Below, piece after piece: positions 3,480 to 9,030 of a stretch of DNA of 64,000 bases. The notes beneath the pieces were generated by a model. That model made no database searches and had not been told where the DNA came from. It worked only from the letters and a program-made list of their open reading frames with translations. This DNA comes from Oscillospiraceae bacterium (GTDB lineage: Bacteria; Bacillota; Clostridia; Oscillospirales; Oscillospiraceae), in contig SVLM01000005.1 of NCBI GenBank assembly GCA_015067945.1, positions 1-64,000 of the forward strand, given 5' to 3'. The position numbers and the translations under genes were made by a program. How positions within the stretch are numbered: the first letter of the stretch is position 1; every line of letters starts with the position of its first letter.

Positions 3480-4925
3480 TTACCGGCCCAGCATTTTGCG
3501 GAACAGGGCCATATACTTTTCGGCAGGCTTGTTCCAGCTGAAGTCCTGACACATATCCCGGTACTGGAGGCTTTGGAAGCCCTCCCGGTTTTGATTGTAC
3601 AGATTCAGGCAACGCTTGACGGCGGCATAGAAATCATCGCCATTGTAGCTCTGGAAGGTAAAGCCCAGGCCGTTTTCTCCGTTTTCGTCCACGGGGGGGA
3701 CCGTGTCCTTCAGGCCGCCGGTGGCGTGAACTACGGGCACAGTGCCGTAACGCATGGCGTTCATCTGGCTCAGGCCGCAGGGCTCGGACTTGGAGGGCAT
3801 CAGATAAATGTCACCGCCGGCGTAGATCCGGCTCGCCAGACCCAAATCGAAGGTGATCTTGGCGGCTACCTGATCCGGGAATTCCGCGGCCAGCTCCCGG
3901 AAGAACTGCTCAAACTGAGGCTCGCCGGTGCCCAGAATCAAAAGCTGGCAATCCTCTTCCCACAGCAGGCTCCGGGCAATATAGCACAGCAGATCCAGTC
4001 CCTTGTGGCCTGCCAACCGGGTGACCATGACCATCAGCGGGACATCCGGCTTTTGGGGCAGACCCACTTCCTGCTGCAGGGCAGCCTTGCAGGCGGCCTT
4101 GCCGGGGATGAAGCTGTCGGCGTTGTAATGTGCCGGCAGGGCGGGGTCGGTCTCCGGATTGAATGTGCCCACATCAATGCCGTTGGTAATGCCGGTGAGC
4201 TTCCAGCTGGCGTCGGAAATAATGCCGTCCAGGCCGTGGGAGAAGTAGGGATACATCAGCTCCCGGGAATAGGTCTCGGAAACGGTGGTCACCAGATCGG
4301 CGGTTTCAATGGCACCTTTCATCATGTTCACCGAGTGGTTCATGTCCATGCAGCCCCGGTATTCCCAGGGCAGACCCAGCACGTCATCGAAGAAGCCGGC
4401 GTTTGCCCAACCCTGATACTCGATGTTGTGGATGGTGTACATACACTTGGTGTTGGGGAAGTCGCTGCGGTACATGGCCCGCAGGTAGGTGGGGACCATG
4501 GCGGTCTGCCAGTCGTTGCACTGGATCACGTCCGGCACAAAGCCCATCAGACGCAGGCCGTCCAGGCAGGCCTTGGAGAAGTAAGCATAACGCTCGCTGT
4601 CGTCCATGTCACCGTAGATGGCACCGGGGCGGTGGCCGAAGTAGTAATTGTTGTCCACAAAATACACCTTCACGCCATCGGTGCGGCCCTGCAGTGCCAT
4701 CAGGCCTGCATACTGCCGCCGCCAGCCCAGCTGAACCTCGTACTGAGCCATCAGCTCGGTCTGGAATTTGGGATTTTCCTTGATTTTTTTGTAGTATGGC
4801 AGGATCAGCACGACCTCGTTGCCGGGAATCCTGGCCAACGCGGCAGGCAGGGCCTCCATAACGTCGCCCAGACCGCCGGATTTTACATAGGGTGCACCCT
4901 CAGAAGCCAAAATGGCTATCTTCAT
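3480..4925 (-). CDS. glgA: Glycogen synthase (ADP-glucose)
   Basis: Transfers glucose from ADP-glucose to the growing alpha-1,4-glucan. The 481-residue length is normal for bacterial GlgA (GT5). The N-terminal KSGGLGDV motif (residues 16-23) binds ADP-glucose. The C-terminal GT-B half has PSKSEPCGLSQMNAMRYG with the catalytic Glu region. Its start overlaps the end of glgD by 4 nt, so it is the last gene of glgC-glgD-glgA. No branching enzyme or phosphorylase is in the window. The maltodextrin genes at 59-64 kb are the other alpha-glucan genes here. Confidence 0.95.
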   Translation of the reverse strand: MKIAILASEGAPYVKSGGLGDVMEALPAALARIPGNEVVLILPYYKKIKENPKFQTELMAQYEVQLGWRRQYAGLMALQGRTDGVKVYFVDNNYYFGHRPGAIYGDMDDSERYAYFSKACLDGLRLMGFVPDVIQCNDWQTAMVPTYLRAMYRSDFPNTKCMYTIHNIEYQGWANAGFFDDVLGLPWEYRGCMDMNHSVNMMKGAIETADLVTTVSETYSRELMYPYFSHGLDGIISDASWKLTGITNGIDVGTFNPETDPALPAHYNADSFIPGKAACKAALQQEVGLPQKPDVPLMVMVTRLAGHKGLDLLCYIARSLLWEEDCQLLILGTGEPQFEQFFRELAAEFPDQVAAKITFDLGLASRIYAGGDIYLMPSKSEPCGLSQMNAMRYGTVPVVHATGGLKDTVPPVDENGENGLGFTFQSYNGDDFYAAVKRCLNLYNQNREGFQSLQYRDMCQDFSWNKPAEKYMALFRKMLGR

Positions 4926-6034
4926 ACGACGCCTCCTCTTGTGATGATGACGGGATTGTTCGGTGTGCCGATGAGCTTGGCACCGGGACGGACAGTCACA
5001 TCCTTGTCCAAAATAACGTATTTCAGCTGTGCACCCTCACCGATTACCGCATCGTTCATAATGACGCAATCGGAAATCTCTGCACCGGGATAAACGGTAA
5101 CATTACGGAACAGCACGGAATTACTGACCTTGCCGCCAATGAGACAGCCGTCGGCAACAACGATATCTGCAGTGTCGCTGTTTTCACCGTAGAAGGTGGG
5201 AACCCGGTCACGAACACGGGTATACACGGGGTGGTTGTAGCCAAACAGATCGTGGCGGGTTTTGGTGTCGATCAGGGACAGGGTGTTTTCAAAGTACTCG
5301 GAAACGGATTCGTTGTACAAAACCACGCCGGGGAACTGGTAGACGTTGATGCTGACCTCGCCCTTCTGCCACAGACCCAGAACCAGATCCCGGTCCATGT
5401 GGAACAGATTCCGGGCGATATGCTCCCGAACCTGCTCAGCCAGCCACTTCTTGGAGGTTACGAAAATATCCATCGTAGCCAGATAGCCCTTGGGGGCTGC
5501 GTAGTCAACAGCGATGTCCACAGCCTCGCCCTTCTTGTCCAGCTTGATGGACAGATCCAGCTGCTTTTCGCCGTTGGCGATGCCGGCCTTGGTGACTACG
5601 GTAATGTTACGGCCGCTGGCGATATGAGAAGCCAGCACATCCTTCATATCGATATTGCACAGGATGGTGGAGCCGGTCATGATCACATACTCGTCCTCGT
5701 CGCCGTAGGTCAGGAAATTCATGGCGGAGTACAGAGATTCCAGCTTACCGCGGTAGCTGTCAGTGGCGGACATGGCATAGGGGGTTAAAAATTCCAGACC
5801 GCCCTCTTCCAGCTCCAGGCCCCATTCTTCACCGGCACCGATGTGGTTGATCAGAGACTGATAGTGGTGACGGGAAATGATGCCGATATGCCGCACACCG
5901 GCGGCGGTGAGGTTGGACAGCGCAAAGTCCACCTGGCGGTAACGGCCGCCAAAGGGGACGCTGGCGGTGGTGCGGTGTTCGGTCAGACCGTCCAAAGAAC
6001 CGTCGTTTGCAAAGATAATACCCATTACTTTCAT
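4922..6034 (-). CDS. glgD: GlgD subunit of glucose-1-phosphate adenylyltransferase
   Basis: A 370-residue paralogue of GlgC with the nucleotidyltransferase fold followed by a left-handed beta-helix. It begins MKVMGIIFANDGSLDGLTEHR, so the GlgC motif GGxGSRL is degenerate. That fits the known role of GlgD in Firmicutes as a modulatory subunit that pairs with GlgC. A start at 6034 is supported by AGGAGG upstream. It lies 14 nt after glgC and overlaps glgA by 4 nt. Confidence 0.93.
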   Translation of the reverse strand: MKVMGIIFANDGSLDGLTEHRTTASVPFGGRYRQVDFALSNLTAAGVRHIGIISRHHYQSLINHIGAGEEWGLELEEGGLEFLTPYAMSATDSYRGKLESLYSAMNFLTYGDEDEYVIMTGSTILCNIDMKDVLASHIASGRNITVVTKAGIANGEKQLDLSIKLDKKGEAVDIAVDYAAPKGYLATMDIFVTSKKWLAEQVREHIARNLFHMDRDLVLGLWQKGEVSINVYQFPGVVLYNESVSEYFENTLSLIDTKTRHDLFGYNHPVYTRVRDRVPTFYGENSDTADIVVADGCLIGGKVSNSVLFRNVTVYPGAEISDCVIMNDAVIGEGAQLKYVILDKDVTVRPGAKLIGTPNNPVIITRGGVV

Positions 6035-6048
6035 GGTGCATACCCTCC

Positions 6049-7239
6049 TTACAGCATATCACCGGGCAGCAGCACGGTGTTGGCTTCCACAACGGCACCC
6101 TTGGAGGTGACGCTGATTTTCTTCTTGTCCTTGGGTTTGAAAGCACCGCCGACAATGGCGTTGCAGCCGACGCGGCTGTTTTCTCCCAGAATGGCGTGGC
6201 GGACGATGGCACCGGGCTCAATGACGACACCGGGCATGATCACGCTGTCCTCCACTAGGGCGTTTTCACCGATGGTGCAGCCCATGGAGATGATGCTGTG
6301 GCGAACGGAGCCGTAAATTTCGCTGCCTTCTGCCACAAAGCAGTTAACAACCTTAGCGTCTTTGTCGATGTAGGAAGAGGGCAGGGCACTGTTCCGGGCG
6401 TAGATGGTGGAATTCTTACCGCCTCGCAGATCGAATACGGGTTCCTTGCCCAGCACGTCCATGTTGGCTTCCCACAGGGACTGGATGGTACCCACGTCCA
6501 TCCAATAGCCGTCGAACTCGTAGGCCATCAGCTTGTGGCCGGCGTTCAGCAGGTTGGGGATGATGTTCTTGCCGAAGTCGTTGGAGGAATTGGGATCCTC
6601 TTCGTCGGCGATCAGGAACTCCCGGAGGGTTTGCCAGTTGAATACGTAGATGCCCATGGAGGCCTTTGTGGACTTGGGCTGAGCGGGCTTCTCCTCAAAC
6701 TCGTAAACGGAGTTGTCGGGGTTGGTGTTCATGATGCCAAAGCGGCTGGCCTCTTCCAGAGAAACATTTCGCACGGCGATGGTGCAGGAGGCACTGTTCT
6801 TCACATGGTAATCCACCATGGCGGAGTAGTCCATCTTGTAGATATGGTCGCCGCCCAGAACCACAACATATTCCGGGTCAAAACGCTCAATGAAGTCAAT
6901 GTTCTGGTAGATGGCGTTGGCGGTGCCCTTGTACCAGCCACTCTTTTTGTCGTGGCGTTCATAGGGGGGCAGCACCTGAGCACAGCTGTGGGTCTTGTTC
7001 AGGCCCCAGGGCTGGCCGTTGCCGATGTATTCGTTCAGCTCCAGAGGCTGATACTGGGTCAGAATGCCCACAGTGTCGATGCCGGAGTTGACGCAGTTAC
7101 TTAAGGGAAAGTCAATAATGCGGTATTTGCCGCCGAAGGGCACGGCAGGTTTTGCGGTGTTCTCAGTGAGTACCTTCAGACGGCTGCCCTGGCCACCGGC
7201 CAGCAGCATGGCAATGCAGCGTTTTTTCTGGAAATACAT
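6049..7239 (-). CDS. glgC: Glucose-1-phosphate adenylyltransferase, catalytic subunit
   Basis: Makes ADP-glucose from glucose-1-phosphate and ATP, the committed step of glycogen synthesis. The 396 residues include [13 protein letters not shown] (pyrophosphorylase loop), [18 protein letters not shown] and [10 protein letters not shown], all intact, followed by hexapeptide beta-helix repeats. It is first in glgCDA, with an AAGGAG site before the ATG. The gap upstream (7240-7435) is A+T rich and must hold its promoter, but I could not pick one clear -35/-10 pair. Confidence 0.95.
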
Positions 7240-7435
7240 GTTGACAGCTCCTTAATATAGTAAGATTTTTTAACATTCTTCGACTGATATAATTCCATAT
7301 ATAACATACCATATTTTAAGCAATTAGGAAAGTGGAAAAATGGCTAAAATCTCAAGTGACTTTCTGGCATTTTCCACAATAATTTCTTGTCAGCAGTGAA
7401 GTTGCGTGGACATATCGACAGTTTTTGAGAGTTGG

Positions 7436-7464
7436 TTGACATTCTTGGGGGACGGGAGTAAACT
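7436..7464 (+). promoter_or_regulatory. SigA-type promoter of the mgtE leader
   Basis: TTGACA (7436-7441), exactly 17 nt, then TAAACT (7459-7464). Transcription would start near 7471, only about 25 nt before the leader peptide start codon. Confidence 0.75.
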
Positions 7465-7470
7465 ATTAGT

Positions 7471-7613
7471 ATCACAAAAAAAGGAGGCGTAACCATGGAC
7501 CCCGACACAAGCGGCAGTATAACCGGTGATCATAGTTTGCGGGTCATGGTGTGCCCGTAGACCGAACCGGTGTATTTGCCCTCTGAAATGGTAAAAAAGG
7601 AGGAAATACACAA
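7471..7613 (+). promoter_or_regulatory. mgtE leader RNA with ribosome-site-hiding hairpin
   Basis: After the leader peptide stop (7560), bases 7570-7583 (GTGTATTTGCCCTC) are complementary to 7600-7611 (GAGGAAATACAC), which contains the mgtE ribosome binding site. This gives 12 pairs with a 2-nt bulge. The self-complementary ACCGGT occurs at 7522-7527, inside the peptide gene, and again at 7566-7571, at the foot of the hiding stem, so the two copies can form a competing pairing. I see no M-box consensus. The layout suggests translational control of mgtE by ribosome behaviour on the leader gene; this is inferred. Confidence 0.6.
7495..7560 (+). CDS. Predicted MgtE leader peptide (MDPD type)
   Basis: A 21-codon frame between the promoter and mgtE, starting MDPDTSGSIT and ending RVMVCP. 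It has a textbook AAGGAGG (7481-7487) 7 nt before its ATG. The first residues, Met-Asp-Pro-Asp, resemble the Met-Glu-Pro-Asp start of enterobacterial MgtL. In MgtL, acidic and proline residues near the N-terminus destabilise ribosomes when magnesium is low. The peptide probably has no function of its own. Its role as an Mg2+ sensor is inference from motif and position; no homology to MgtL is claimed. Confidence 0.65.
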   Translation: MDPDTSGSITGDHSLRVMVCP

Positions 7614-8987
7614 ATGGAAAGATTTGAAATTGTAGAAAAAGCACTCCTCAAAATGCTGGAGGAGAAGAAGTACAGTGCCCTGCGGGATATTCTGCTGGTG
7701 ATGAATCCCAACGACGTAGCCCAGCTCTTTGACCAGGTGCCCCCGCAGAACATTCCTCTACTATTTCGGCTGCTGCCCAAGGAGCAGGCAGCGGAGACCT
7801 TTGTTGAAATGGAGCCGGAGGCACAGGAATTGCTGATCCGCAGCTTTTCGGATAACGAGCTGAAAGAAATTGTGGATGAGCTGTATGTGGATGATGCGGC
7901 AGACCTGGTGGAGGAGATGCCCGCCAATGTGGTTAAGCGGATCTTAAAGCAGGCGGACCCGGAAATGCGTCGGTCTATCAATCAGATCCTCCGCTATCCG
8001 GAAAATTCCGCAGGCAGCTGGATGACTACGGAATATGTATCCCTGCGGCCGGAAATGACCGTGGAGGAGGCCATTCTGCGGATTCGACGGCAGGGCGTGG
8101 ATAAAGAAACCATCTATACCTGCTATGTGACCAAAGACCGGGTGCTGGTAGGTATTGTATCTGTAAAGGATCTGCTCCTTGCTCAGGATGACGAAACCAA
8201 GATTGAAGATATTATGTTAACTAACCTGATCTCCGTTTCCACCCATACGGACCAGGAAGAAGTGGCCAGAATGCTCAGCCACTACGATTTCCTGGCACTG
8301 CCGGTGGTGGATAAGGAGAACCGGATGGTGGGTATCGTCACCTTCGACGATGCCATGGACGTGCTGGAAGCGGAAACCACCGAGGATATGGAGCTGATGG
8401 GCGGTATGACCCCCTCGGAAAAATCCTATCTGAAAAGCGGTGCCTTTGATCTGTTCAAGAACCGTATCCCCTGGCTGATGCTGCTGATGGTGTCGGCTAC
8501 CTTCACCGGACTGATCATCACCGCCTTTGAGGGTGCTTTGGCAGCCCAGGTGGCGTTGACCGCCTTTATTCCCATGCTGATGGGTACCGGCGGTAACTCC
8601 GGCTCCCAGTCTTCCGTTACGGTGATCCGTGCCCTGAGTCTGGACGAACTGAAGTTCTCCGATGTGGGCCGGGTGCTTTGGAAGGAGCTTCGTACCGCTT
8701 TGCTCTGCGGCGTGGCTTTGGCGGTGGTGTGCTTTGTGAAGATCTGGCTGGTGGATAAATTGCTCATGGGCAACGATCAGATTACGCTGATGGTGGATCT
8801 GGTAGTATGCCTGTCTCTGTGCGTCACGGTGGTGGCAGCGAAGGTGGTTGGCTGTCTGCTGCCCATCGGTGCCAAGGCCATCAAGGTAGACCCGGCGGTC
8901 ATGGCCAGTCCGTTCATCACGACCATTGTTGATGCACTGTCTTTGCTGGTCTATTTCCTGCTGGCGAAGATGATTCTGGGCGTGTAA
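7614..8987 (+). CDS. mgtE: Magnesium transporter MgtE
   Basis: A 457-residue Mg2+ channel of the SLC41/MgtE family. Domains in order: N domain of helical repeats (1-135), two CBS domains (about 140-260, with YVTKDRVLVGIVSVKDLL and LPVVDKENRMVGIVTFDDAM) and five C-terminal membrane helices (about 285-455) with the pore signature GTGGNSGSQSS. The CBS and N domains gate the pore by binding cytosolic Mg2+. The ATG follows AAGGAGG by 10 nt, and this site can be paired in the leader hairpin. Transcribed alone. Confidence 0.95.
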   Translation: MERFEIVEKALLKMLEEKKYSALRDILLVMNPNDVAQLFDQVPPQNIPLLFRLLPKEQAAETFVEMEPEAQELLIRSFSDNELKEIVDELYVDDAADLVEEMPANVVKRILKQADPEMRRSINQILRYPENSAGSWMTTEYVSLRPEMTVEEAILRIRRQGVDKETIYTCYVTKDRVLVGIVSVKDLLLAQDDETKIEDIMLTNLISVSTHTDQEEVARMLSHYDFLALPVVDKENRMVGIVTFDDAMDVLEAETTEDMELMGGMTPSEKSYLKSGAFDLFKNRIPWLMLLMVSATFTGLIITAFEGALAAQVALTAFIPMLMGTGGNSGSQSSVTVIRALSLDELKFSDVGRVLWKELRTALLCGVALAVVCFVKIWLVDKLLMGNDQITLMVDLVVCLSLCVTVVAAKVVGCLLPIGAKAIKVDPAVMASPFITTIVDALSLLVYFLLAKMILGV

Positions 8988-8994
8988 CAAACAG

Positions 8995-9030
8995 AAAACC
9001 GGCGTTCGGAACGCCGAACGCCGGTTGGTT
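8995..9030. terminator. Terminator shared by mgtE and the convergent lipoprotein gene
   Basis: A 12-bp perfect G+C-rich stem (8998-9009 with 9014-9025) with a 4-nt loop. It lies 10 nt after the mgtE stop and 13 nt past the end of the leftward small lipoprotein gene. Confidence 0.75.

Follow-up and report, generated by a model that had tools for sequence, protein, structure and literature searches.

A widely conserved MDAG leader-peptide family before Mg2+ transporter genes, with a candidate translational switch at mgtE of an Oscillospiraceae bacterium

The short open reading frame (ORF) that precedes mgtE in the window (the whole 64,000-nucleotide stretch of DNA analysed here) belongs to the MDAG leader, a genuine family of leader peptides that is widely conserved before Mg2+ transporter genes. 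The region may be a leader-peptide-controlled translational attenuator of the Mg2+ importer that lets import proceed if translation of the leader fails, as at low Mg2+; we infer the sensing step and the direction of control, and hold this reading tentatively, at a little less than even confidence. An earlier sequence-only reading had proposed a Mg2+-responsive leader switch acting on mgtE translation, and its general idea is largely right: the conserved coding-like ORF, the covarying stem, the competing pair and the tie to Mg2+ transport agree with it, whereas its acidic/proline peptide motif is wrong as a family rule, and it missed the GRS/CGA block, which the window has lost.

The leader in the window and its distribution

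The features of the window locus are collected in Table 1. The 21-codon ORF with its Shine-Dalgarno (SD) sequence AAGGAGG, the stem hiding the mgtE ribosome site and the competing ACCGGT pair, all named by the sequence-only reading, are present, the stem having 13 pairs in the fold instead of the 12 counted before. The consensus promoter of that reading also exists as a site; however, positions 7240-7640 hold two promoter-like sites against a mean of 1.0 in shuffled sequence, and since about one such site is expected there by chance, it is no evidence alone. Among the marks of membership in the family (a short ORF with an SD, an M-D/E-x-G start and a Mg2+ transporter gene no more than ~0.35 kb downstream), the window leader has all except that codon 4 is Asp, not Gly. 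No Rfam family reaches threshold within the window when covariance models are run, M-box RF00380 (gathering score) included; thus, the window mgtE is without a recognised M-box. Soon past the mgtE stop, at 9001-9022, lies a GC-rich inverted repeat, possibly a terminator hairpin, and on the minus strand at 3480-7239, divergent from mgtE, are three neighbouring genes that we take to be glycogen synthesis genes from their resemblance.

Table 1. Coordinates of the leader, its pairing elements and mgtE in the window
Feature	Position	Strand	Remarks
Promoter-like site TTGACA-17-TAAACT	7436..7464	+	10/12 consensus matches; TTGACA at 7436, 17-nt spacer, TAAACT ending 7464
Leader ORF Shine-Dalgarno AAGGAGG	7481..7487	+	SD also before the ORF in most relatives
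Leader ORF, 21 codons, MDPDTSGSITGDHSLRVMVCP	7495..7560	+	ATG 7495, TAG 7558-7560; lineage-divergent member of the MDAG...GRS family
Element A, 5' side of P1, ACCGGT inside the leader ORF	7522..7527	+	
P2 hairpin, within the last leader ORF codons and stop	7535..7562	+	From folding
Element B, 3' side of P1, ACCGGT past the ORF stop	7566..7571	+	Adjoins the P3 foot
P3 5' arm, anti-SD side of the hiding hairpin	7570..7584	+	
P3 3' arm	7599..7611	+	Includes mgtE SD GGAGG 7599-7603
mgtE, Mg2+ transporter, 457 aa	7614..8987	+	ATG 7614; NCBIfam mgtE equivalog 466 bits, cut-off 233

Of 101 genomes of the window's genus, 93 gave mgtE-like matches in a protein search. Ninety loci, part of the listed matches, were read, of which 85 were positioned by alignment to the window mgtE and five were distant paralogs that could not be positioned. 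A leader ORF is found upstream of mgtE in 80 of the 85 positioned loci (78 by rule and two, L042 and L053, behind an inserted repeat), which together with a P3 stem that pairs better with its own partner than with swapped ones supplies the conserved frame and the stem covariation looked for in relatives. In L020, L023 and L058, neither a leader nor a CGAAGT block lies within 700 nt of mgtE, while in L079, for which no leader was counted, the upstream region is cut by the contig end. L077 has a second mgtE, 51% identical, behind an M-box and a diverged leader. In L042 and L053, a structured repeat (TGGCTCCCCTTGAGGGGAGCTG...) stands between leader and mgtE, and the leader stop lies ~195 nt before mgtE. 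In Candidatus Faecousia faecipullorum, the leader motif precedes an mgtE 81% identical to that of the window. An exact-DNA scan of named genomes returned at least 115 motif stretches; among the matches listed, 20 are followed by an mgtE within 400 nt, and the other 95 have no MgtE, MgtA or CorA match at that position in the available flanking DNA.

The family search covered 150 genomes with mgtE matches in 127; 68 loci were read, 65 positioned and 40 kept as leader-bearing, the 25 left out including L206 (already in the genus set), L234 (its leader is that of L233) and L246 and L266 (rule matches judged false). The family consensus is MDAGSS..GT..GRS, which shrinks to METAGRSS in L233. In L233 and L234, this minimal METAGRSS... 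leader runs past the mgtE start in another frame and leaves no stretch for P1 or P3, a layout that suggests overlapping-frame interference instead of an RNA switch.

A sequence-only model (R1) built from 74 leaders gave 53 matches at E<=0.001 in 295 genomes of the order, six of them the model's own input sequences. The other 47 comprise 38 before mgtE (35 within 350 nt of a listed mgtE and three on contig fragments), five before a Mg2+-translocating P-type ATPase (mgtA), one at a contig end, one ~0.77 kb before mgtE, and two (L349 and L350) with no Mg2+ transporter of these kinds seen alongside. Among the five mgtA loci, L348 was assigned by its first codons only, which resemble those of L347, and L345 reaches a score of 604 on an incomplete stretch, the cut-off being 611. 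The mgtE-associated matches span 13 families of the order; model matches with E above 0.01 are largely chance finds, 4 of 84 standing before mgtE. Beyond the order, related leaders occur in further orders of the class and in a second class of the phylum. The class search gave 22 loci besides the window's own, of which 16 lie before mgtE, one being a distant MgtE (L382, 27% identity), and in the phylum search all five matches beyond the window at E<=0.001 do so, four of them in one family. Sampled over the order, 150 listed mgtE genes have an R1 leader in 49 cases, an M-box without an R1 leader in seven, both in none and neither in 94. Forty of these 94 loci were read by eye, unscored, and about half have a diverged short ORF (for example MDGRSRR, MDASGVTVPRQ or MDTGRSSR), the remaining half or so showing no recognisable leader.

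Peptide motif and the CGA codon

The shared peptide is M-D/E-A-G-S-S...G-R-S. The 60 unique genus leaders of equal front length read M-D/E-A-G-S-S-G-N-I-P-G-R-S, with ATA in 54/60, CGA in 58/60 and AGT in 58/60, while the third base is variable in CCN and GGN; length differences among the other genus leaders are whole codons. Single-base departures relative to the commonest codon in codons 2-13 number 118 synonymous and 60 non-synonymous, where 24% synonymous would be expected (sequences being counted, not independent events), and third-base entropy is 1.04 against 0.54/0.53 in codons 2-8 and 0.73 against 0.17/0.26 in codons 9-13. Codons 15-19 have 28 synonymous and 57 non-synonymous departures and no periodicity. 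This substitution pattern indicates that the ORF front (codons 2-13) is kept as protein; the tail is not, yet it is predicted to fold into P2. Pfam and NCBIfam profiles run against six leader peptides gave no match but one Pfam at E 0.047, far under cut-off.

The leaders were filtered by a start of M[DE] (M[DEGA] in the genus) and by an SD, with an Arg or similar residue downstream in the family and order sets; thus, the selection itself largely accounts for the acidic position 2 (159/163 leaders) and for there being an Arg. In the class set, which was assembled from model matches, 14/16 have D/E at position 2. A single acidic residue occurs in positions 2-6 in 150/163 leaders and two in 10/163. 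The sequence-only reading had taken the window's MDPD start for the sensor and looked for an MD/E-P-D/E block in relatives; the start is present in the window and is unconserved, since M[DE]P[DE] occurs in 1/163 leaders, the window's own, Pro at position 3 in 6/163, and the usual start is MDAGSS. MDPD is therefore rejected as the family's sensor motif and is a local quirk of the window. The proposal that came with it, of ribosomes dropping off at an acidic/proline start at low Mg2+ as in MgtL, draws on the MDPD of the window and on the acidic second position, largely a selection effect, and given these counts we consider it very improbable.

The rare codon CGA is fixed at one place in the family: 145 of 159 leaders use it for their first Arg, compared with 36 of 316 Arg codons further along these ORFs, and AGT follows this CGA in 116. 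Across 45 long ORFs of the window, CGA accounts for 6.6% of 742 Arg codons. The order and class sets are biased towards CGA, the model behind them having been trained on leaders with that codon; CGA is the first Arg in 75/78 genus and 37/39 family leaders, where the Arg codon was no filter. These counts leave out six order-level loci that the genus or family sets already contained. The position of the first Arg varies between residue 5 and residue 22. CGA is fixed either for P1 pairing or for decoding. The window leader is without GRS and CGA-AGT, reading ...ITGDHS (GGT GAT CAT AGT), and its closest relatives, L002 and L003, retain GRS (MESGTSGSIPGRS). A frameshift at AAG-TAG, suggested by an other-frame stop there, was dropped, as relatives without TAG exist.

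Pairing elements and folding

In relatives, P1 is taken as the segment around CGA-AGT (A) paired with a stretch past the leader stop (B), and n varies among the duplex and fold tests because duplicate sequences were omitted, as were leaders whose region was too short or offered no usable anchor. With 18-nt A segments of 110 leaders, the duplex stands at -13.3 with the leader's own B, -11.5 with that of other species and -9.5 with shuffled sequence, and none of 2000 permutations, which ignore kinship, was as good. For the extended P1, own against swapped values are -18.95 v -17.42 in the genus (n=77), -20.1 v -17.26 in the family (n=38), -16.75 v -12.91 in the order (n=22) and -15.16 v -12.45 in the class (n=14), with 0/1000 permutations as good in each set, kinship again ignored; the own pairing beats the mean of the others in 57/78, 31/38, 20/23 and 12/14 leaders, respectively. 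L364 is a clear example, with GATCGAAG pairing with CTTCGATC. In the mgtA leaders, P1 is unsupported (own -11.2, swapped -12.2, 874/1000 permutations as good). A strict 8-base P1 core was set aside as evidence, the fixed A core being complementary to B only slightly more often than to shuffled B (34/77 v 25.3; 17/38 v 14.4; 12/22 v 10.2; class 10/14 v 5.5). Overlap of P1 with the P3 5' arm is near the expectation from random placement (68/71 v 59.3; 30/33 v 25.1; 12/20 v 11.5) and is therefore descriptive only.

The hiding stem P3 stands at -16.7 own v -13.36 swapped in the genus, -17.47 v -14.75 in the family (0/2000 permutations each) and -14.22 v -12.41 in the order (1/2000), all with kinship ignored, and the own arm is better than others in 62/69, 28/33 and 13/18 leaders, respectively. 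Over 110 leaders, P3 regions have a mean z of -2.78 (103 below -1) and at least three of five SD bases are paired in 101, while P2 has a mean z of -1.95 (83 of 110 below -1). RNAalifold on the full 76-row MAFFT alignment predicted zero pairs, which we attribute to varying loop lengths; the own-versus-swapped duplex tests were used instead.

In the window, P3 has its 13 pairs between 7570-7577 and 7604-7611 and between 7580-7584 and 7599-7603; its z of -1.87, with 8/200 shuffles folding equally well, is modest over chance alone, and the conservation in relatives makes this predicted stem firmer. The ACCGGT pair (7522-7527/7566-7571) plus its enclosed hairpin gives z -3.32 with 0/200 shuffles as good, whereas full-leader folds are unremarkable (7490-7622, z -1.28; 7470-7640, z -1.06). 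At the position of element A, most same-genus relatives read ATACCNGGNCGAAGTAG where the window reads ACCGGT. The window copy is one that keeps the anatomy of the switch in weakened form, with the GRS codons lost and P1 below average strength.

Partition-function models of 119 leaders put the probability that the mgtE SD is unpaired at 0.45 with P1 forced, 0.27 free and 0.19 with A blocked, and between blocked and P1-forced states the exposure shifts by more than 0.1 upwards in 84 and downwards in three. A ribosome footprint on A under otherwise free folding lowers exposure only from 0.26 to 0.21, and the only footprints to exceed the baseline of 0.256, slightly, are those at the ORF start (0.266) and near the stop (0.279). 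For the window, the corresponding values are 0.39 free, 0.35 with P1 forced and 0.21 with A blocked, P1 bringing no opening. Taken with the comparative pairing, these models support a translation switch at the MDAG leader.

Proposed mechanism, alternatives and known systems

Under ample Mg2+, ribosomes would traverse the leader and cover A, P3 would shut and little MgtE would be made. Under scarce Mg2+, they would fail or slow short of A, so that P1 could form, the P3 foot, whose bases are shared between P1 and P3, could open and MgtE could be made. The candidates for sensing Mg2+ are the Met-Asp-Ala-Gly-Ser-Ser start and slow decoding at the rare CGA. It is the modelled order of SD exposure, highest with P1, intermediate when free and lowest with A covered, from which the proposed direction follows. 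The link to Mg2+ comes from the genes and elements around the leader. An M-box precedes mgtE in 4/20 family loci without a leader by rule, and in eight loci (L238, L240, L077, L344, L345, L346, L359 and L371) the leader lies 3' of an M-box, four of these (L344, L345, L346 and L359, the leader of the last identified by eye) serving mgtA and the other four mgtE. At the leader itself, Rfam found nothing in the leader-bearing loci scanned, its only matches there being the 5' M-boxes and one distant SRP RNA. The mgtE, mgtA and M-box contexts together place one leader before two unrelated Mg2+ transporters and beside a known Mg2+ sensor.

The fixed rare codon could also be read as the site of a low-Mg2+ ribosome pause, as at CGA-AGT, in which case the presence of the ribosome would open the mgtE site by some other rearrangement. 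CGA at this one place and hardly at later Arg codons speaks for it, as does mgtQ, in which a ribosome on region 1 frees the mgtB site in the excerpted account (PMC8092293); however, a footprint on A lowers predicted SD exposure, and footprints at the start or near the stop raise it only slightly, so that we consider such a stall rather unlikely. The leader might instead sense a different signal, be it charged tRNA, an antibiotic or a general stress on the ribosome, with the Mg2+ transporter merely its output. Fixed rare codons are a usual mark of codon-level sensing, the leader has one, and its peptide front is rich in Ser and Gly; minimal leaders such as METAGRSS and MDGRS are without the Ser/Gly run, however, and two unrelated Mg2+ transporters and a Mg2+ riboswitch as neighbours would be hard to place, which makes this the less probable. 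An undescribed ligand-binding RNA with an incidental reading frame would account for the support for P1 and P2 and for the base-by-base conservation of CGAAGT, but the protein-like substitutions in codons 2-13, the whole-codon length changes, the SD before most ORFs (although an SD is one of the rules by which the leader ORFs of relatives were picked), the variable spacing from start to first Arg and the lack of an Rfam match at the leader in the window and the loci scanned make it quite improbable.

Returning to the attenuator, its parts have counterparts in described systems, known here from excerpts of the cited papers. Mg2+-responsive leader peptides have been described in enterobacteria (PMC8092293, PMC11282234). 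The nearest case to have been studied is mgtQ of Salmonella mgtCBRU, an 8-residue ORF between two operon genes, in which Asp2 and Glu5 are needed and a ribosome on region 1 releases the ribosome-binding site (RBS) (PMC8092293). Like the MDAG leader, it is a short ORF before a Mg2+ transporter with competing stems, an RBS in a stem, translational control and an acidic position 2 (PMC8092293); its plan of an RBS in a stem and a competing stem inside the upstream ORF is found here in P3 and P1 by comparison and folding. The two differ, which tells against the attenuator as proposed, in that the ribosome on region 1 of mgtQ frees the RBS in that excerpt, whereas a footprint on A of the MDAG leader is predicted to hide the mgtE site, and the peptides are set apart by description, not alignment (PMC8092293). 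The mgtL leader of enterobacterial mgtA has an EPDP motif (Glu2/Asp4) and acts through Rho-dependent transcription termination (PMC11282234). It shares with the MDAG leader, some copies of which precede mgtA, the place before a Mg2+ transporter gene and the thought that Mg2+ is read via ribosome stability (PMC11282234); the EPDP is lacking in the MDAG family save for the window's MDPD, and the excerpted control by mgtL is on transcription, whereas the apparent target of the MDAG leader is the ribosome site. An acidic start of the MgtL type (at least two acids, or acid/proline alternation) is not a property of the family; the window leader, taken by itself, has one.

The M-box (ykoK, RF00380) shares its target genes with the MDAG leader, being found upstream of orthologous mgtE and mgtA, and differs in that it binds a ligand as RNA and has no peptide; most MDAG leaders occur without it, and the M-box stands alone in some relatives and in tandem with the leader in the eight loci above. 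The mycobacterial M-box uORF2 (Rv1805A), whose peptide is called mycobacteria-specific and whose ORF is controlled by the riboswitch in the excerpted text, is likewise a conserved small ORF between an M-box and Mg2+-stress genes, compared by description (PMC12810186). The mgtE motif is a proposed riboswitch found only in Thioalkalivibrio, like the MDAG leader a candidate cis element with the mgtE SD inside it; no ORF is mentioned in the excerpt, and the comparison is again by description (PMC11109978). The MDAG leader is absent from the excerpted passages of PMC8092293, PMC11282234, PMC12810186, PMC11109978, PMC3641672 and PMC6429828, and no title or abstract on it turned up in a literature search whose scope left out most subscription papers and preprints; the family is apparently undescribed, its novelty being provisional.

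More broadly, it is possible, with the balance slightly on the side of doubt, that undescribed leaders across Bacillota read Mg2+ via the ribosome by a rule other than the acidic/proline one (an MDAGSS start, then Gly-Arg(CGA)-Ser(AGT) at a variable distance), as a second sensor for MgtE and MgtA that replaces the M-box or acts in series with it. If so, this would suggest more than one origin for ribosome-based reading of Mg2+, with another peptide rule at work. The family occurs in gut and other Clostridia, before two unrelated Mg2+ transporters and partly in series with the M-box. Through its GRS/CGA-AGT block and its tandem loci, ribosomal Mg2+ reading becomes directly testable.

Several loci have further layouts. 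L345 (G386:C9:105000-107500) has an M-box, then two successive short ORFs with MD/ME starts and then an mgtA-type ATPase gene. In L347 and L351, the leader ORF overlaps the mgtA start in another frame, with no M-box in the stretch scanned. In L357 (G107:C5), an M-box lies closely upstream of a CorA-like gene (NCBIfam corA 109 bits, cut-off 201).
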